DNA from: Spirochaetales bacterium
GTDB lineage: Bacteria > Spirochaetota > Spirochaetia > Sphaerochaetales > Sphaerochaetaceae
Reading direction: 5' to 3'
DNA: 38,731 nucleotides
Assembly (NCBI GenBank): GCA_028722305.1
Contig: JAQYHB010000012.1
Location: forward strand, 1-38,731
Both the position numbers and the translations under genes were made by a program. Below the pieces are notes generated by a model. That model was not told the DNA's origin, searched no databases, and was given only the letters and a program-made list of their open reading frames with translations. Numbering within the stretch: position 1 is the first letter of the stretch; each line of letters begins with the position of its first letter. Below are positions 20,158 through 29,153 of the stretch, piece by piece.

Positions 20158-21039
20158 ATGGTGAGACAAGAAATGAAGGAAGGAAGAATGGGGAGAAGGC
20201 CGACATGGATGTACCCGTATCTGATGCTGATGCCCGCACTGTTTTTTGTCCTTCTCTTCAAGATATATCCGATGGTGTCCGTGACCATCGGTTCCTTTTT
20301 CCGCAATGGCAGGCTGTCGCTGAGGACCTACCAGATTCTTTTCGGGGACCAGACCTTCTGGAACTCGCTCTGGGTGACGGTACAGATGAATATCATCATC
20401 ATTCCGTTACAGGTTGTCATTTCCTTGGTTCTCGCCCTGCTTGTGAACAACAAGGTGAAGGGCATCGGGGTCTTCCGGAGCATCTATTATATTCCGGTGA
20501 CCATGGCTATCGCCGTCGCTTCCGTCACGTGGTCGCTGATGATGAACGTCAACAACGGTGTCTTCAACAGCATCCTTTCGGTTTTTGGCATTCCCGCCCA
20601 GGGATTCTTCACCAATCCGGACCAGGCCCTTGGCTGCATCATCCTCATGGCGAGCTGGAAGGGTTGCGGCTACTGGATGATGTACTTGCTTGCCGGGCTG
20701 AAAGGTATCGACGGCTCGTTGTATGAGTCGGCTCGGTTGGATGGGGCAGGTTATTTCCAACGCCTGTTCCACATCACGATTCCGATGATGAGCAGGACGA
20801 TGCTCTTCGTCGTGGTGGCCAATACGACCGCGAACATGCTGATGTTCGCGCCGACCAAATTGATTACCGAGGGAGGACCTGCGAACCGGACGAACGTTTT
20901 GATGTACGAGGTCTACAAGTCAGCCTACCGCAACGGGAACCAGTCGCGCGCCGGAGCAATCACCGCCATGTTGCTCGTCCTGATCCTGTTCACCGTCATC
21001 ATCCAGTTCCGGATGATCAACACCCACGACGGGGAGTGA
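20158..21039 (+). CDS. ABC sugar-type permease, MalF/UgpA-like
   Basis: A 293-residue inner-membrane permease with six hydrophobic segments. The EAA loop that contacts the ATPase reads LYESARLDGAGYFQRLFHITIP (about residues 190-211). The ITEGGPANRTNVLMYEVYKSAY segment after it is characteristic of MalF-like subunits. The ATG is preceded by GAGGAGGG. It follows the binding-protein gene and is followed by the second permease; no ATPase gene is present in the cluster. Confidence 0.92.
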   Translation: MVRQEMKEGRMGRRPTWMYPYLMLMPALFFVLLFKIYPMVSVTIGSFFRNGRLSLRTYQILFGDQTFWNSLWVTVQMNIIIIPLQVVISLVLALLVNNKVKGIGVFRSIYYIPVTMAIAVASVTWSLMMNVNNGVFNSILSVFGIPAQGFFTNPDQALGCIILMASWKGCGYWMMYLLAGLKGIDGSLYESARLDGAGYFQRLFHITIPMMSRTMLFVVVANTTANMLMFAPTKLITEGGPANRTNVLMYEVYKSAYRNGNQSRAGAITAMLLVLILFTVIIQFRMINTHDGE

Positions 21040-21047
21040 GGTTTGCC

Positions 21048-21893
21048 ATGCAGAAGAAATATCGTACCGCCGCGCTTGTGGTTCTTTACACGGTTCTTGT
21101 GCTCATTGCCGTGATCGCCCTGTTCCCCATGCTCTACATCCTGATGGCTTCGTTCCGGACGGACAAGGAGATTTTCGCCTACAACCTGCCCTTCGGCTTC
21201 CATACGATTTTCCCGAAGGTGTGGACGCTGGCAAGCTACCATGACATCTTCGCCGAGTATGGTTTCGGGGTACCGCTACGCAACAGCTTCCTGGTCGTGC
21301 TCGTGTGTCTGCCGGTCAACCTGTTGGTCGCTTCGGTTGCCGGGTATGCCTTTGCCTTCTTCAACTTCAAGGGAAAGAAACTGCTCTTTGCCATTTTCAT
21401 TGTCTCGTTCATGGTCCCGGCCGATTCCGTCGCCCTGCCGCTGTATACGTTGGTCAACAAGATGGGACTGGTGAACACGTTCACCGGCTTGATTCTGCCT
21501 GGGGTCTCCAGCGGGCTGGCGATGTTCCTGTTCACCCAGTTCTTCCGGGGAATTCCCAAGAGCTTCATCGAGGCGGGAACCGTTGATGGAGCCAATTGGG
21601 GACAGATTTTCACCAAGATCATCATGCCCCTTTCCGTCCCGGTCTTCATCACCGCCGGACTGATGGTCTTCGTCAACTCCTGGAACGACTACCTCTGGCC
21701 CCTGCTCTGCGGGCGGAACGAAGAGGTGAGGACCATCCAGGTGGCATTGGGATACTTCAAGGATGAGAACGAGACCTATTGGAGCTATATCTATGCGGCT
21801 TCCTCGATTTCCGCCCTCGTCCCGATCCTGATGTTCCTGCCGTTCCAGAAGTACTTTGTGGAGGGAGTCACCTCGAGCGGAATCAAGGGGTGA
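21048..21893 (+). CDS. ABC sugar-type permease, MalG/UgpE-like
   Basis: A 281-residue permease with six membrane segments. The EAA loop reads SFIEAGTVDGANWGQIFTKIIMP (near residues 180-202), and the C-terminal VEGVTSSGIKG ends as MalG-like proteins usually do. A GTG at 21036 overlaps the stop of the previous gene, but the ATG at 21048 has GTGAGG six bases upstream and is preferred. The transporter lacks its own ATPase gene and would need a shared MsmX/UgpC-like ATPase encoded elsewhere. Confidence 0.92.
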   Translation: MQKKYRTAALVVLYTVLVLIAVIALFPMLYILMASFRTDKEIFAYNLPFGFHTIFPKVWTLASYHDIFAEYGFGVPLRNSFLVVLVCLPVNLLVASVAGYAFAFFNFKGKKLLFAIFIVSFMVPADSVALPLYTLVNKMGLVNTFTGLILPGVSSGLAMFLFTQFFRGIPKSFIEAGTVDGANWGQIFTKIIMPLSVPVFITAGLMVFVNSWNDYLWPLLCGRNEEVRTIQVALGYFKDENETYWSYIYAASSISALVPILMFLPFQKYFVEGVTSSGIKG

Positions 21894-21980: not shown

Positions 21981-22010
21981 TTGACAGGGAGGCGTGTGAA
22001 CCTGTATGCT
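21981..22010 (+). promoter_or_regulatory. Promoter of the his operon
   Basis: A perfect TTGACA (21981-21986), an 18-base spacer and TATGCT (22005-22010). The expected transcription start is at 22017, the first base of the leader peptide ATG. Confidence 0.6.
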
Positions 22011-22016
22011 CTGGAC

Positions 22017-22064
22017 ATGAAACCAATGAATCTCCACCATCATATGTGCGTTTTGCCGGCCTGA
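22017..22064 (+). CDS. hisL: his operon leader peptide (HisL-like)
   Basis: A 15-codon frame encoding MKPMNLHHHMCVLPA, with three consecutive His codons (CAC CAT CAT, 22035-22043), ending in TGA. It lies 72 bases upstream of hisG and is followed by alternative hairpins and a T-run terminator. No Shine-Dalgarno sequence precedes the ATG and the promoter predicts a start of transcription at its first base, so it may be translated leaderless. Alternatively a GTG at 21996 in the same frame, with GGGAGG close upstream, could begin a 22-codon form from an earlier promoter. Its role is to sense charged tRNA-His by ribosome stalling, not to make a product. Confidence 0.8.
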   Translation: MKPMNLHHHMCVLPA

Positions 22065-22120
22065 AGGGTGGGTTTCTGGAGTCATACACAAGGACCTCCG
22101 CCTTTCGCGGAGGTTTTTTC
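22034..22120 (+). promoter_or_regulatory. Histidine attenuator: competing leader hairpins and rho-independent terminator
   Basis: Segment 1 CCACC (22034-22038) overlaps the His codons and pairs with segment 2 GGTGG (22067-22071). Segment 2 in its longer form (22063-22072) can instead pair over ten continuous base pairs, including wobbles, with segment 3 (22097-22106). Segment 3 lies in the 5' arm of the terminator ACCTCCGC (22094-22101) / GCGGAGGT (22107-22114), which is followed by a run of T to 22119. A ribosome stalled on the His codons would cover segment 1, free segment 2 to capture segment 3, and let transcription reach hisG. With ample charged tRNA the 1:2 and 3:4 hairpins form and transcription stops. 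Confidence 0.85.
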
Positions 22121-22136
22121 GTATCAGGAGGATTCC

Positions 22137-22997
22137 ATGGAGACGCTACGTATCGCGATCCAGAGCAAAGGGCGGTTGTCCGAGGATAGCCTTAGGCTGA
22201 TCAAGGATTGTGGCATCCAGTTCGATACCGAGAGCAGGGTCCTGAAAGAGAGGGCCTATAACTTTCCTCTCGAGTTCCTGTTTGTCCGTGATGACGATAT
22301 TCCTGGCTATGTCCAGAATGGTATCGCCGATATCGGCATTGTCGGTCGTAACGAATACGATGAGCAGAACCTTCCGTTGAAAGTGGTCAAGGACCTTGGC
22401 TTCGCCAAATGCAGGTTGTCGGTCGCCGTTCCCGTCGATTTTGCGTATCAGGGACTTTCCTCCTTGGAGGGGAAGCGGATCGCCACAAGCTATCCGGGTA
22501 TTCTTGGCAGGGTGCTTGCCGAGCATGGCGTCCATGCCAAGTTTGTCAACGTTTCCGGCTCTGTCGAGGTTACCCCTGCCATCGGCATCGCCGACTGCAT
22601 CTGCGACCTCGTTTCCACAGGTACCACCCTGAAGGCCAATGGCCTGCGCGAGGCCGAGTGCGTCTACAGGACCAGTGCGGTCCTGATTGCGCGCCAGGAA
22701 ATGGGAAGCGAGGAAAAGCAGGCCATCCTCCAGCGGCTGATGCTGCGCATCAACGCCGTGCAGAAAGCCCAGGGCTACAAGTACATCATGTTCAACCTTC
22801 CGGAGAAGGAATTGGAAAAAGTACGCCAGATTGTGCCCGGCATGAAGAGCCCGACCGTGACCCATCTGCTTGAAGAGGGCTGGGTATCAGTCCAGACAGT
22901 CGTCCAAGAGGACCATTTCTGGGATGTGGTCGAGCAATTGAAGCACCTCGGTGCCGAAGGCATCCTGGTGACGGCCATCGAGAAGATGACAGAGTGA
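22137..22997 (+). CDS. hisG: ATP phosphoribosyltransferase, long form
   Basis: Catalyses the first step of histidine synthesis, ATP plus PRPP to phosphoribosyl-ATP. At 286 residues it is the long, HisZ-independent form with a C-terminal regulatory ACT-like domain, so feedback inhibition by histidine is expected. Motifs: AIQSKGRL at the N-terminus, ADIGIVGRNEYDE, and the PRPP-binding loop IADCICDLVSTGTTLKANGL near residues 160-180. GSVEVTPAIG precedes that loop. The ATG has AGGAGG (22126-22131) six bases upstream, just after the attenuator T-run. It is the first structural gene of hisGDCBHAFI(E). Confidence 0.96.
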   Translation: METLRIAIQSKGRLSEDSLRLIKDCGIQFDTESRVLKERAYNFPLEFLFVRDDDIPGYVQNGIADIGIVGRNEYDEQNLPLKVVKDLGFAKCRLSVAVPVDFAYQGLSSLEGKRIATSYPGILGRVLAEHGVHAKFVNVSGSVEVTPAIGIADCICDLVSTGTTLKANGLREAECVYRTSAVLIARQEMGSEEKQAILQRLMLRINAVQKAQGYKYIMFNLPEKELEKVRQIVPGMKSPTVTHLLEEGWVSVQTVVQEDHFWDVVEQLKHLGAEGILVTAIEKMTE

Positions 22998-23004
22998 GGC
23001 ATAT

Positions 23005-24300
23005 ATGTATCTGAGTCGTGACGAGGAGCCGGATGCTGGACGGCTTCAGGCGCTTCTGAAGCGTGCGGAATTAGACCGCAGTGCGGTCGCGGAGAGTGTC
23101 CGGTCGATTCTGGGCCGAGTCAAGGAAGAGGGGGACTGTGCCCTGTTTGCCTTGGAGGCGCAGTTCGACCATGCGAACCTTTCCACCCTGAAAGTATCTT
23201 CAGAGGAGCTGGATGAGGCGGAGAAGCTTGTCGATAACGATTTGAAGAAGGCCTTGCTGCAGGCAAGCCGCAACATTCGTGCCTTCCATGAGATCCAGGT
23301 TCCCAAGGGGGAAATCCTTGAAGTAGAACCCGGAGTGAGACTTTCCCGTCGGATTGTCCCGATCCACACGGTAGGTCTCTACATTCCCGGCGGCACCGCA
23401 CCGCTGTTCAGCACCGTCTTGATGCTGGCCATCCCTGCCCACGTCGCCGGTTGTCCGAAGATTGTGCTCTGCACTCCTCCCGGTCCGGACGGCAAGGTCA
23501 ATCCCGCCATCCTCTATGCAGCCAAAGTGGGCGGAGTGACCGACATCTTCAAGGTCGGCGGAGCCCAGGCGATAGCTGCCATGGCCTATGGCACCGAGAG
23601 CGTGCCAAAGGTCGACAAGATCTTCGGGCCGGGCAACCGTTTTGTCATGGAGGCAAAGCTCCAGGCCAGCGAAAGCTGCGCCATCGACATGCCTGCCGGT
23701 CCGAGTGAGGTCATGGTCATCGCCGACACGAAGAGCGACCCTGCCTTTGTCGCCAGCGACCTTCTGAGCCAGGCCGAACATGGACCTGACAGCCAAGCCA
23801 TGTTGGTGCTGGTCTCCCAAGGGAACGAGGCGACGGAATACCTGGACCAGGTGGAGGCCGCCATCGCGAAGGAGCTCGCGACCCTGAAGCGGGGCAAGTT
23901 CCTGCTTTCCAGCCTTTCCCATTCCCATGCGATTGTCATGCACGACAAGGAAGGTGCGGCCCGTATTGCCAACGCCTATGCCCCCGAGCATCTGATCATC
24001 AACTGCCAGGAGTATGGGAAGGTCCTTCCCTTGATTGAGAGCGCAGGTTCAATCTTCCTCGGACCTTGGTCCTGCGAGAGCGCGGGAGATTACGCGAGCG
24101 GCACCAACCATACGTTGCCAACATCAGGCTGGGCCCATAGCTACAGTGGCGTGAGCGTCGACTCCTTCATCAAGAAGCTGACTGTGCAGGAGTTGTCCAA
24201 AGAAGGTCTGAAGGGCCTGTCAAAGACAATCGAGACGATGGCGGATGGCGAAAGCCTTGACGCCCACAAGGCGGCGGTGACAATCCGCATGGGAAACTAA
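23005..24300 (+). CDS. hisD: Histidinol dehydrogenase
   Basis: Carries out the last two steps, histidinol to histidine with two NAD+, using a zinc ion. The 431 residues match the family length. Visible are PGGTAPLFSTVLMLAIPA, the FGPGNRFVMEAK NAD region, the zinc-ligand segment LSQAEHGPDSQ, the catalytic Glu-His in YAPEHLIINC, and the C-terminal ESAGDYASGTNHTLPTSGWA with a further zinc ligand Asp. The gene starts 7 bases after hisG with GTGAGG upstream. Confidence 0.97.
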   Translation: MYLSRDEEPDAGRLQALLKRAELDRSAVAESVRSILGRVKEEGDCALFALEAQFDHANLSTLKVSSEELDEAEKLVDNDLKKALLQASRNIRAFHEIQVPKGEILEVEPGVRLSRRIVPIHTVGLYIPGGTAPLFSTVLMLAIPAHVAGCPKIVLCTPPGPDGKVNPAILYAAKVGGVTDIFKVGGAQAIAAMAYGTESVPKVDKIFGPGNRFVMEAKLQASESCAIDMPAGPSEVMVIADTKSDPAFVASDLLSQAEHGPDSQAMLVLVSQGNEATEYLDQVEAAIAKELATLKRGKFLLSSLSHSHAIVMHDKEGAARIANAYAPEHLIINCQEYGKVLPLIESAGSIFLGPWSCESAGDYASGTNHTLPTSGWAHSYSGVSVDSFIKKLTVQELSKEGLKGLSKTIETMADGESLDAHKAAVTIRMGN

Positions 24301-24301
24301 G

Positions 24302-25372
24302 ATGAGAGAACTACTCAGAAAGAATATTGCCGAGCTGGTGCCCTACAGTTGCGCACGCAATGATTTCAAAGGAGTCGCATCGGTCTTTTTGGATGCGAAC
24401 GAGAATTGGCAGGATTTCGTGAAAAAGCCTGGCCGCAACCGCTATCCAGACCCGCTTTGCACCCGGCTCAGGGCAGAGATTGAAAAGCGTATGGGACTGA
24501 AGGCAGCCCATACCGTCATCGGCAACGGCAGCGACGAGGTGATTGACAACCTGATCCGTATGTTCTGTGTGCCGGGAAAAGACCATGTCCTGTTGTTGCC
24601 GCCGACCTATGGTGCCTACCGGGTCTTCTGCGACATCAACGATGTAAAGGTGGATATGGTTCCGCTCAAGACGGACTTCCAGCTCGACATGGATGCAATC
24701 CTGTCGTTCCTGAGAAGCGAGAAGGAAAACCGCAGGGAAGGCGGAGGGCGGCTGAAGCTACTGTTCATCTGCTCCCCGAACAACCCGTCGGCCAATGCTT
24801 TCCCCTTGGACCAAGTCGAGGAAATCGCCAGAAACTTCGATGGTATCACAATCGTCGATGAAGCGTACCATGATTTCTCCTCGGTCGAATCAGCGGTCAG
24901 CTTGCAACCCAGATATCCCAACCTGGTCGTGCTGCGCACGCTGAGCAAATGCTGGGCCTTGGCCGGAGCCCGTATCGGCATTCTGGTGGCCAGCGAGGAA
25001 ATCTGTGCGGTCATGGCCTCCATGAAGTATCCGTACAACGTCTCGTCCCCCGCCCAGGATGCCGCGCTCGAGGATATGGAAAACTGGGAGAAGGTCATGG
25101 CAGGCAAAGTGGATATCCTGAAGCAGCGGCCGCTGTTCGCATCCGCCTTGGCCAAGCTTCCTTGTGTCGAGAAGGTCTATCCTTCCGACGCGAACTTCCT
25201 CTTGGTGAAGGTGCGCGATGCCAACAAAATCTATGCATACCTGATGGACAAGGGCATCATCGTCCGCAACCGCAGCAAGGAACTGCACTGCGAAAACTGC
25301 TTGCGGATTACCGTCGGCAATGCCAAAGAGAACCAGGCCGTCATCGATGCCTTGAAGGAGTGGGAGGAATGA
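24302..25372 (+). CDS. hisC: Histidinol-phosphate aminotransferase
   Basis: A 356-residue PLP-dependent class I/II aminotransferase that converts imidazole-acetol phosphate and glutamate to histidinol phosphate. Visible are FLDANEN near the N-terminus, IGNGSDEVIDNLIRMF, LLFICSPNNPSANAF, IVDEAYHDFS with the Asp that contacts PLP, and TLSKCWALAGARIG with the Schiff-base Lys. It begins one base after the hisD stop and its own TGA overlaps the ATG of hisB by 4 bases. Confidence 0.95.
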   Translation: MRELLRKNIAELVPYSCARNDFKGVASVFLDANENWQDFVKKPGRNRYPDPLCTRLRAEIEKRMGLKAAHTVIGNGSDEVIDNLIRMFCVPGKDHVLLLPPTYGAYRVFCDINDVKVDMVPLKTDFQLDMDAILSFLRSEKENRREGGGRLKLLFICSPNNPSANAFPLDQVEEIARNFDGITIVDEAYHDFSSVESAVSLQPRYPNLVVLRTLSKCWALAGARIGILVASEEICAVMASMKYPYNVSSPAQDAALEDMENWEKVMAGKVDILKQRPLFASALAKLPCVEKVYPSDANFLLVKVRDANKIYAYLMDKGIIVRNRSKELHCENCLRITVGNAKENQAVIDALKEWEE

Positions 25373-26466
25373 ACCACACGCCACTGTTGCTGATTGACCC
25401 GCGTACCGTGGTATTCCAGGATGCCGGGGTGAACGAGAAAAGCCGCTTCATCTACAGCGAGCGGGTGATTCCAGCTTTGGCGCGTCTGCGTGCCGAAGGG
25501 CCCTTCGCCTTTGTCCTAGTCTGTCCCGAGCGTGGCGTGGGCACCCCAGGACATGTGCTGGAGTCCTTTGAGAAAGGCCGGAGCAATCTGATCGACACTC
25601 TCCGCGGCCAAGGAATCGATTTCGAGCGCGAGGTATGGGACTTCACCTTGAAAGAGGACAAATGTCCCGCCTCTCTTCCCTCCGATGGGCTTTTTGACTG
25701 GGCGAGGGACGAGCGGTATGATCTAGACATGTCGGTGCTGGTCACCGCGGACGAAGCGATGTTGCTACTGGCACAAGACCTTGGATGCAAGGTGGTTTTC
25801 TACGGATTGCGTGAAGGGGTGCTTTTTTCCAGCACCAACTGGAATGATATCGTCTGCTTTCTGCTCGGGGATGGCAAGCACACTTGCCGTATCGTCAGTG
25901 TCGAGCGTCAGACCAAGGAGACCCAGATCCATCTGACGGTCAATCTGGACGGGACGGGAAAGGGCAGGTTGGGGACCGGTATCGGTTTCTTCGACCATAT
26001 GTTGGACCAGATTGTCCGACATACCAACTTCGACGTAGACCTGCACGCCCACGGAGACCTTGAGGTGGACGAGCACCACACCGTCGAGGATGTGGCGATT
26101 GTCCTCGGGACCGCAGTCCTGAAAGCGCTGGGGGACAAGCGTGGCATCAGCCGCTATGGATGCGAACTGCTTCCGATGGATGACGTGCAGGCGAAGGTCG
26201 CCATCGATTTCTCCGGCCGCCCCGACTTCATCTGGCAGTGTCCTTTCAGCCGCCAGTATATCGGCACCTTCCCTACCGAGATGGTGGAGCACTTTTTCAA
26301 GTCGTTCAGTGATGCGGCCCAGTGCAACCTGCACATGCAGGTGAGCGAGGGCAACACCCACCATCAGGCAGAGGCGCTTTTCAAGGGTTTTGCCCATGCC
26401 GTGCGGCAGGCGGTACGCCGTTATTACTGGTCCGACGAGCTTCCGTCGACCAAAGGGAGTCTGTGA
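25369..26466 (+). CDS. hisB: Imidazoleglycerol-phosphate dehydratase fused to a degenerate phosphatase-like N-domain
   Basis: A 365-residue protein laid out like bifunctional HisB of enterics. The C-terminal dehydratase (about residues 168-365) is intact: FFDHMLDQ, GDLEVDEHHTVEDVAIVLG, GRPDF and EGNTHHQAEALFKGFAHAVRQA with the metal-binding His/Glu sets. The N-terminal HAD-like domain (1-155) keeps only the first Asp (D10) of DxDGT, which reads DPRTV. The TNQDG motif is CPERG, the zinc Cys/His cluster and RKP Lys are gone, and GDRETD is TADEAM. Phosphatase activity is therefore unlikely. Overlaps hisC by 4 bases and hisH by 1. Histidinol-phosphatase must be supplied from elsewhere. Confidence 0.93.
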   Translation: MNHTPLLLIDPRTVVFQDAGVNEKSRFIYSERVIPALARLRAEGPFAFVLVCPERGVGTPGHVLESFEKGRSNLIDTLRGQGIDFEREVWDFTLKEDKCPASLPSDGLFDWARDERYDLDMSVLVTADEAMLLLAQDLGCKVVFYGLREGVLFSSTNWNDIVCFLLGDGKHTCRIVSVERQTKETQIHLTVNLDGTGKGRLGTGIGFFDHMLDQIVRHTNFDVDLHAHGDLEVDEHHTVEDVAIVLGTAVLKALGDKRGISRYGCELLPMDDVQAKVAIDFSGRPDFIWQCPFSRQYIGTFPTEMVEHFFKSFSDAAQCNLHMQVSEGNTHHQAEALFKGFAHAVRQAVRRYYWSDELPSTKGSL

Positions 26467-27062
26467 TGAAGGTCGCGATTGTCAAATACAGCGCAGGCAA
26501 TACCCGATCGGTGATCTGCGCCCTCCAGCGGCTGGGAGTCGACCCGATGGTGACTGACGACCCCAAGGAGCTCCAGGCTGCCGACAAGGTGGTTTTCCCT
26601 GGTGAGGGTGAGGCCCGCACGGCTATGACCGACCTGCGGGAGAAGGGGTTGGTCGAGGTGATCCGGAACCTGAAGAAACCCTTTTTAGGCATCTGCCTTG
26701 GCGAACAACTCCTCTGCACCCACAGCGAGGAGCACAATACGGACTGCCTTGGTATCATCGATGTTCCGGTTGTGCGTTTTCCTGAGCAAAATGGGGTGAA
26801 AATCCCACATATGGGATGGAATACGGTCAGCTTCCGCCGGGGAGAGAAGCTTTTCGAGGGGCTGGGGGACCAGGCATGGTGCTACTTTGTCCACAGCTAC
26901 TACGTGCCGGTCTGTCCTTTCTCAATCGGTCTTACCCAGTACGATGGAATCACGTTCACCAGCGTGCTACGCAAGGATAATTTCTATGCGAGCCAGTTCC
27001 ACATGGAGAAGAGCGGGGATTTGGGCGAGCTGATGTTGAAGAACTTCCTGGAGCGGGTATGA
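26466..27062 (+). CDS. hisH: Imidazole glycerol phosphate synthase, glutaminase subunit
   Basis: A 198-residue class I glutamine amidotransferase that supplies ammonia to HisF. It shows FPGEGEARTAM near the oxyanion region, the nucleophile Cys in FLGICLGEQLL, IPHMGWNTV, YFVHSYYVP, and the catalytic His-Glu pair in SQFHMEKSG. The last motif is usually FHPEKS; Met replaces Pro here while His and Glu remain. The ATG shares one base with the hisB stop (TGATG) and its own stop overlaps hisA by 4 bases. Confidence 0.95.
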   Translation: MKVAIVKYSAGNTRSVICALQRLGVDPMVTDDPKELQAADKVVFPGEGEARTAMTDLREKGLVEVIRNLKKPFLGICLGEQLLCTHSEEHNTDCLGIIDVPVVRFPEQNGVKIPHMGWNTVSFRRGEKLFEGLGDQAWCYFVHSYYVPVCPFSIGLTQYDGITFTSVLRKDNFYASQFHMEKSGDLGELMLKNFLERV

Positions 27063-27787
27063 GCATGCAATGTATTCCTGCCATCGACCTGGTTGGCGGA
27101 ACCTGTGTCCGGCTTGTCCAGGGGGACTATGGGAAAAGCAAGCAGTATGGGCTCCCGCTTGAAATTGCCAAGCGCTACGAGGCGGCCGGTTTCAAGCGAC
27201 TTCACCTAGTTGATCTGGATGGTGCCAAGGGGGGACGGATCGAGAACCTGAAGGTGCTCGAGTCCATCTGTAGCCAGACCCATCTGGTCGTCGATTTCGG
27301 CGGAGGAATCAAGGACGAGGCCAACCTGCGTGAGGCGCTGGATGCCGGCGCGCAGATGGTCACCTGTGGCTCCATTGCCGTGCAGGACCGAAACACTGTC
27401 TTATCCTGGGCAAAGAAGTATGGAGCCGGACACCTGATCATCGGCTGTGACAGCAAGGATGGCAGGATCGCCACCAATGGATGGAAGGTTGTGACGGATA
27501 CGAACGTCGAGGAGCTCTGTTCCTTCTATCTGGGGCACGGGTTGGACCTGTTCCTTTCCACGGATATCGCCCGTGACGGAATGCTCGGCGGTCCATCGAT
27601 TACCTTATACGAGCATTTGATGAAGCGTTTTCCCACGGCCCGCTTCATCGCGAGCGGGGGTGTCTCCAGCCTAGGTGACATTCGCGCCCTGCAGAAAGCA
27701 GGGCTCTACGGAGTCGTGGTTGGCAAAGCCCTTCTGGAGGGTCGGTTCACCCCAGAGGAACTGAAGGAGGTCGAGGATGCTGGCTAA
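27059..27787 (+). CDS. hisA: ProFAR isomerase (5'-ProFAR to PRFAR)
   Basis: A 242-residue (beta-alpha)8 barrel performing the Amadori rearrangement. The catalytic Asp of the first half is in IPAIDLVGG and that of the second half in [13 protein letters not shown]. The two phosphate-binding loops are FGGGIKDE and [11 protein letters not shown]. The start overlaps hisH by 4 bases, and the end overlaps hisF by 11 bases, so these three genes are tightly coupled. Confidence 0.96.
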
Positions 27788-28541
27788 ACGGATTATTCCC
27801 TGCTTGGACGTCAAGAACGGACGTACGGTGAAGGGCGTCAACTTTGTCAGGCTTCGTGATGCCGGGGATCCGGTCGAACTTGGCGCCGCCTACTCGGCAG
27901 CCGGTGCGGACGAGCTGGTCTTCCTGGATATCACCGCGACGATCGAGGGCCGGAAGACCTTCGCGGAGCTGGTGCGCAGGATTGCCGAGCGGATCAACAT
28001 CCCCTTTACGGTGGGTGGGGGCATTTCCAGCGATGATGATGTGGCACGCCTTCTGGACGCGGGGACGGACAAGATTTCGGTCAACAGCAAAGCAGTCAGG
28101 GATCCCGGCTTGCTCGACCGCCTGTCCCGCCGTTTTGGTTCCCAGTGTGTCGTCTGTGCGGTCGATGCGAGGAGCAATCCCTCTTTGACAGGCGGTTGGG
28201 AGGTCTATGTGGATGGTGGCCGGACACCGACCGGGAAACCGGTCATGGAATGGGTGAGGGAGGTTGAGGACCGGGGAGCCGGCGAGATACTCCTGACCAG
28301 CATGGACCATGATGGAACGAAGGATGGCTTTGCCGTCGACCTGACCCGCGCGGTAAGCGAAGCGGTCTCCATACCCGTCATAGCCAGCGGAGGGGCGGGC
28401 AATATGGAGCATTTCAGGGATGTATTCACCAAAGGAAAGGCCGACGCTGCGCTTGCCGCCTCGATCTTCCATTTCCACGAGGTGGATATACACGATTTGA
28501 AGACGTATCTCGCCGCAAGCGGGATTCCGATGAGGATGTAA
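27777..28541 (+). CDS. hisF: Imidazole glycerol phosphate synthase, cyclase subunit
   Basis: A 254-residue barrel that uses HisH-derived ammonia to turn PRFAR into imidazole glycerol phosphate and AICAR. Conserved items are [18 protein letters not shown] with the catalytic Asp11, [27 protein letters not shown], the second catalytic Asp in [13 protein letters not shown], and [13 protein letters not shown]. The ATG has AAGGAGG eight bases upstream, inside the end of hisA. AICAR released here returns to purine synthesis. Confidence 0.97.
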
Positions 28542-28544
28542 GCT

Positions 28545-29153
28545 ATGGAACTTGATTTTGCCAAGGGCAATGGGCTGGTACCTGCCATTATCCAGGATGC
28601 ACAGACGGGAAAGGTGCTGATGCTGGGGTATATGAACGAGGAGTCCTTGAGAATCACCCAGGAGAAAGGCCTGGTGACCTTCTGGTCCCGTACCCGCCAG
28701 AAACTCTGGACCAAAGGGGAGACTAGCGGGCACTTCCTGAAGGTCAGGGAAGTCATCCCTGATTGTGACAAGGACACGCTTCTGATCAAGGCGGTTCCTA
28801 CCGGACCGGTTTGCCATACCGGACAGGACACCTGTTTCGGGGAGGACAACAAAAGCGCAGGGGATGCCCCCATCCTCTTCTTGGAGACGCTGGGAAAGGT
28901 GATTGAGGACCGCAAGCAGAACCCGGTTCCCGGTTCCTACACCGACCACCTGTTCAAGCGTGGCCTGAACCAGATCGCCAAGAAAGTGGGAGAGGAGGCG
29001 GTAGAGACCATCATCGCCAGCAAAGATGATGATGACGATGACTTCCTAGGCGAGTGCTCTGATTTAGTTTACCATTTGATGGTGTTGCTTTCGGTGAAAG
29101 GCCATACCATCGAGGATGTGGCAGCCTGTTTAAAGGCCCGCCACAGCAAGTAA
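28545..29153 (+). CDS. hisI: Bifunctional phosphoribosyl-AMP cyclohydrolase / phosphoribosyl-ATP pyrophosphatase
   Basis: A 202-residue HisIE fusion for the second and third steps of the pathway. The N-terminal cyclohydrolase (to about residue 105) has MLGYMNEESL, TFWSRTRQKLWTKGETSG and the zinc-binding Asp/Cys set in PDCDKDT...GPVCHTGQDTC. The C-terminal pyrophosphatase part has SYTDHLFKRGLNQIAKKVGEEAVETIIA, followed by an acidic stretch of six Asp before DLVYHLMVLL. It begins 3 bases after hisF and ends the operon. No clear terminator was found after it. Confidence 0.96.
   Translation: MELDFAKGNGLVPAIIQDAQTGKVLMLGYMNEESLRITQEKGLVTFWSRTRQKLWTKGETSGHFLKVREVIPDCDKDTLLIKAVPTGPVCHTGQDTCFGEDNKSAGDAPILFLETLGKVIEDRKQNPVPGSYTDHLFKRGLNQIAKKVGEEAVETIIASKDDDDDDFLGECSDLVYHLMVLLSVKGHTIEDVAACLKARHSK

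Follow-up and report, generated by a model that had tools for sequence, protein, structure and literature searches.

Ahead of its his operon, a gut spirochaete carries a very short reading frame rich in histidine codons. Does ribosome stalling in this frame report a lack of histidine, as it does in E. coli? The stretch of DNA analyzed here, the window, comprises positions 1–38,731 of contig JAQYHB010000012.1 (assembly GCA_028722305.1; 38,731 nucleotides) from a Spirochaetales bacterium of the Sphaerochaetaceae, and the parts of the leader and of the his operon described below lie on its forward (+) strand. The answer is very probably yes. More specifically, we hold with high confidence that ribosome-mediated attenuation controls transcription of the his operon here, with a leader peptide translated from a leaderless RNA.

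The leader ORF (hisL, 22017–22064), read directly from the sequence, has 15 codons encoding MKPMNLHHHMCVLPA; it starts at the ATG at 22017 and stops at the TGA at 22062–22064. Its three consecutive codons CAC CAT CAT (22035–22043) are the putative regulatory sensor, as judged from the sequence and from the His runs in the leaders of relatives. A full his operon follows in the order hisG-D-C-B-H-A-F-I(E), supported by Pfam. The hisG gene (22137–22997) is of the long form, with the HisG_C regulatory domain, and has its own Shine-Dalgarno motif (AGGAGG) upstream, and the remaining genes, hisD, hisC, hisB (IGPD), hisH, hisA, hisF, and hisI(E), occupy 23005–29153.

The leader contains the alternative pairings expected of such a device. 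Segment 1, CCACC (22034–22038), overlaps the His codons and is complementary to GGTGG at 22067–22071 (1:2 pairing). Segment 2, GAAGGGTGGG (22063–22072), starting at the leader stop codon, can pair either with segment 1 or with segment 3, TCCGCCTTTC (22097–22106), its antiterminator partner, with which it makes ten gapless pairs, three of them G-U (2:3 pairing). Segment 3 consists of the 5′ arm and loop of an intrinsic terminator (22094–22119; 3:4 pairing), whose stem arms are ACCTCCGC (22094–22101) and GCGGAGGT (22107–22114), with a loop at 22102–22106 and a T-run at 22114–22119 that ends 17 bases before the hisG ATG (22137). The stem measures 8 bp on a strict count and 12 bp when G-U pairs and an A-U extension are included (−17.3 kcal/mol). 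The leader as a whole folds at −37 kcal/mol and is more stable than shuffled sequences (z = −3.0), and the 2:3 pairing, for the window taken alone, is modestly better than shuffles (z = −1.1). An initial annotation of this DNA had proposed the 15-codon leader with its three His codons, the overlap of these with segment 1, the 1:2 and 2:3 pairings, the 8-bp terminator stem, and the 17 bases between T-run and hisG; all of them are found where it placed them. It had also called the attenuator complete. That word needs qualifying: initiation was overlooked, and the leader ORF seems to be leaderless, in contrast to the enteric model.

The upstream neighbor is an ABC transporter permease gene (21036–21893) whose end is separated from the leader ATG by 123 nt, a proximity that would suit an ordinary terminator of the transporter operon accompanied by a short ORF arisen by chance. 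However, a strong promoter lies between the permease gene and the terminator, and conservation already contradicts this explanation. In a sample of hisG upstream regions from Sphaerochaetaceae and further spirochaetes, a short His-run ORF precedes long-form hisG in 96 of the 98 family genomes examined, versus 2 of 146 loci with a His run of at least three in the reverse-strand control. Hence, a chance origin is excluded, and the transporter terminator is hardly credible. The initial annotation had made its reading depend on conservation of the His codons and of the alternative pairing in relatives, and both are conserved there. Apart from the His run, the leader peptides have diverged, and the RNA sequences differ too. 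Among named relatives, an uncultured Spirochaetaceae genome (isolate RUG023) is the nearest, with a HisG 97% identical, and the other family members sampled are annotated as Sphaerochaetaceae, Spirochaetaceae, or Spirochaetales.

The leader is also present in four neighbors from other families of the class (L018, L022, L023, and L026). No comparable leader was found in the other spirochaete families sampled (L027–L029, L082–L097, and L101–L120), nor in the family members with short-form HisG (L098, L181–L185, and L200), so the attenuator goes together with hisG operons of the long form; a few outgroup or short-form loci have isolated HH pairs but no longer run. Two family members with long-form hisG, L164 and L194, lack the His leader and have lost it. 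In both of these, hisG follows another gene, and both share the stretch TGCTAGAGATTAGAATCCT just upstream. A his leader also appeared in a further neighbor, G440. Searches with a His pattern over the class and a Trp pattern over the family gave too much noise to be usable. Outside the phylum, related long-form hisG genes in Ignavibacteriota (L052 and L053) and Bacteroidota (L048) have short His-run ORFs upstream (MLLAIHHNHHHLFLIEEAGVL, MNFINNHIHHHHFSSPQSGEQLWF) together with a terminator-like hairpin.

A terminator was found by scanning in 90 of the 91 distinct leaders, the exception being L138, where a long hairpin comes with a poor T-run. In L014, the terminator upstream of hisG is unlike those of its relatives (CAGGCTTCGCAGACAGCGAAGCCTG) and its T-run is poor. 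Over 90 leaders, both competing duplexes beat dinucleotide shuffles on average, with a mean z of −1.66 for region 2 with segment 3 and of −1.74 for segment 1 with region 2. The duplex of each segment 2 with its own segment 3 reaches −13.7 kcal/mol, versus −11.0 kcal/mol with the segment 3 of other loci. For the group of leaders whose stem is CTCCGC, nearly all rows have segment 2 starting between −2 and +4 nt from the leader stop codon, so that a terminating ribosome would cover it. The 2:3 helix shows 87.9% pairing over 14 distinct rows, against 80.5 ± 1.7% in shuffled data, a figure inflated by the choice of segment 2 as the best match, and two-sided changes number 9 against 4.0 ± 1.3; sliding the partner along destroys the pairing. 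These changes include A-U to C-G at a loop base that is free of terminator constraint. The terminator leaves the loop bases concerned unpaired, so its conservation does not account for the covariation of the 2:3 helix.

From these elements we infer the following course of events in the cell. When charged His-tRNA is scarce, a ribosome translating the leader would stall at the His codons and cover segment 1; segment 2 would then be free to pair with segment 3, occupying the 5′ arm and loop of the terminator, and with terminator formation thus prevented hisG-I would be transcribed. When histidine is plentiful, the ribosome would reach the stop codon and cover segment 2, or leave and let the 1:2 pairing form; with segment 2 occupied in either way, segment 3 would pair with segment 4 and transcription would end before hisG.

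The dependence of folding on ribosome position was computed by setting the ribosome at each codon and folding the RNA downstream of it, segment 4 being not yet made. In the window, the probability of upstream pairing by segment 3 is 0.69 with the ribosome at the His codons, 0.44 with the ribosome at the stop codon, which thus blocks upstream pairing only partly, and 0.07 without ribosome. For 37 divergent representatives the corresponding values are 0.64, 0.34, and 0.27, and they become 0.45, 0.35, and 0.42 when the spacer is shuffled. The difference between the His-stalled and the naked state is 0.373, compared with 0.028 ± 0.031 in 60 shuffle sets (maximum 0.103). The E. coli controls give, in the same order of states, 0.65, 0.66, and 0.05 for hisL and 0.46, 0.00, and 0.25 for trpL. 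With the full terminator present at equilibrium, the terminator of the window wins even with a stalled ribosome (upstream pairing of 0.01), and the same outcome is found for E. coli hisL and trpL. Hence, the antiterminator must form first, as in known attenuators. Taken together, the His codons, the alternative pairing anchored at the stop codon, the covariation in the loop, and a stall response like that of hisL and trpL argue, at the level of sequence, for the ribosome-mediated his attenuator that the initial annotation had proposed.

A terminator just before hisG would be compatible with control by a T-box, a riboswitch, or an RNA-binding protein as well, the His codons then being incidental, and his genes of other phyla do use T-boxes or HisR (PMC9413887). 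Against this, the His runs have been kept in peptides that otherwise diverge, the pairing depends on the position of the ribosome, and no Rfam family, T-box included, scores above threshold in the window or in ten relatives. We consider control of this kind very improbable, and for a T-box or a known riboswitch the lack of any Rfam match in these eleven sequences led to rejection. The His_leader family of Rfam likewise gave no match above the gathering score in the window and the ten relatives.

Given a ribosome-mediated attenuator, how is the leader peptide initiated? No Shine-Dalgarno motif lies upstream of the leader ATG in the window. A consensus scan finds a promoter at 21981–22010, with −35 TTGACA (21981–21986), an 18-nt spacer, and −10 TATGCT (22005–22010), and from this placement we infer a transcription start near 22017, the first base of the leader start codon. 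Initiation by RNA polymerase would thus fall on the leader ATG or at most a base or two away, the RNA would begin with the start codon, and a ribosome could, as we propose, load on it without a Shine-Dalgarno motif. The same geometry is widespread. In 81 of the 91 distinct leaders and 29 of the 37 divergent representatives, TTGAC occurs 35–37 nt 5′ of the leader ATG, compared with a background frequency in these upstream regions of 0.0008 per position, and among the distinct leaders the −10 usually ends 6–7 nt 5′ of the leader ATG. AGGAG or GGAGG precedes the leader ATG in only eight of the 91 distinct leaders, all from the g11 subclade; a looser Shine-Dalgarno-like motif lies ahead of hisG in 90 of the 91. 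The promoter geometry therefore fits a leader ORF that appears leaderless, with its start codon at the predicted 5′ end of the transcript.

The g11 subclade, one genus-level group, is different. Its TTGAC lies 49–65 nt upstream of the leader ATG, placing the promoter about 15–30 nt further upstream, and AGGAG precedes the ATG, so that the element can work with a 5′ untranslated region. This arrangement, and the fact that start sites can vary by 1–3 nt, would speak for the same attenuator being not leaderless elsewhere either, whether because transcription starts further upstream, because a second promoter gives a longer leader, or because the +1 lies a few bases before or into the ORF. But the distance from the −35 and −10 to the ATG is constant across very diverged leaders, and these have no Shine-Dalgarno motif at that ATG although hisG has one. 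Such a start is unlikely in our judgment, and leaderless initiation remains the preferred reading. In the HisG tree, the leaders with a Shine-Dalgarno motif group in a single cluster surrounded by leaderless ones, and L051, although inside this cluster, is leaderless; the tree labels L026, L048, and L052 as leaderless too, without this being established for these three. Two changes explain this pattern. One subclade seems to have swapped leaderless for Shine-Dalgarno initiation, with one apparent reversal. A probable history is thus that an attenuator of the his operon is ancestral to Sphaerochaetaceae and close neighbors, its sensor peptide being initiated on leaderless RNA under selection for the promoter-to-ATG spacing, and that one subclade switched to Shine-Dalgarno initiation, with one apparent return.

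A close counterpart is the enterobacterial hisL (E. coli, Salmonella; Rfam His_leader), with which the spirochaete element shares a His-run leader ORF, segments 1–4, a stall-dependent antiterminator, a terminator before hisG, and the same behavior in the folding test. It differs in having three His codons instead of seven, a start codon at the predicted start of the RNA, and no Shine-Dalgarno motif, as well as in phylum and sequence. The spirochaete leader would work like His_leader but is outside that gammaproteobacterial sequence family. Leaderless initiation has its parallel in trpL of Sinorhizobium meliloti (rnTrpL/peTrpL), where the RNA begins with the leader ATG (PMC7298713). The two share ribosome-mediated attenuation and an RNA starting at the leader ATG, predicted in our case. 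The alphaproteobacterial leader, however, has Trp codons and precedes trpE(G), whereas here it is a his leader in spirochaetes, and the geometry is kept across most of a family, with one switch to Shine-Dalgarno initiation.

His-leader attenuators have been described in open papers for Proteobacteria, and in Firmicutes there are predicted ones (PMC9413887), including hisZ/hisS leaders (PMC2965389). The predicted Firmicutes leaders share a run of consecutive His codons (three to five), a terminator, and an antiterminator, and differ in belonging to other phyla; the passages of these sources devoted to them do not mention leaderless initiation. In Flavobacteriaceae, a structured 5′ element precedes hisG, and leader-peptide attenuation is suspected for amino-acid operons (PMC9723704); this element shares the position before hisG and differs in being from Bacteroidota. 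The initial annotation knew of no his attenuator experimentally described in spirochaetes, and a search confined to open papers found none. Every sequence test points to the known mechanism; what appears new here is the phylum and the leaderless start of the sensor peptide. Leptospira has many leaderless RNAs (PMC5243855), which makes their use in a regulatory leader plausible and testable. With this his leader, amino-acid attenuation by ribosome stalling would extend to spirochaetes, and the family would offer a natural comparison, within the same regulatory device, of leaderless and Shine-Dalgarno initiation where the output depends on the arrival time of the first ribosome. As Rfam has no matching model, the leader family is also a ready covariance family for annotation.

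The promoter arrangement recurs in the genome of the window (G000). Among 30 translated matches to the pattern TTGAC-17/20-TANNNT-5/8-ATG, none shows a further leader combining an amino-acid run with a terminator behind it, as a second leaderless attenuator would. The pattern has 35 matches in this genome, versus 8 for the reversed pattern, and several of them open into long ORFs (e.g., L207, L216, and L217), pointing to a small number of genes that may be leaderless.
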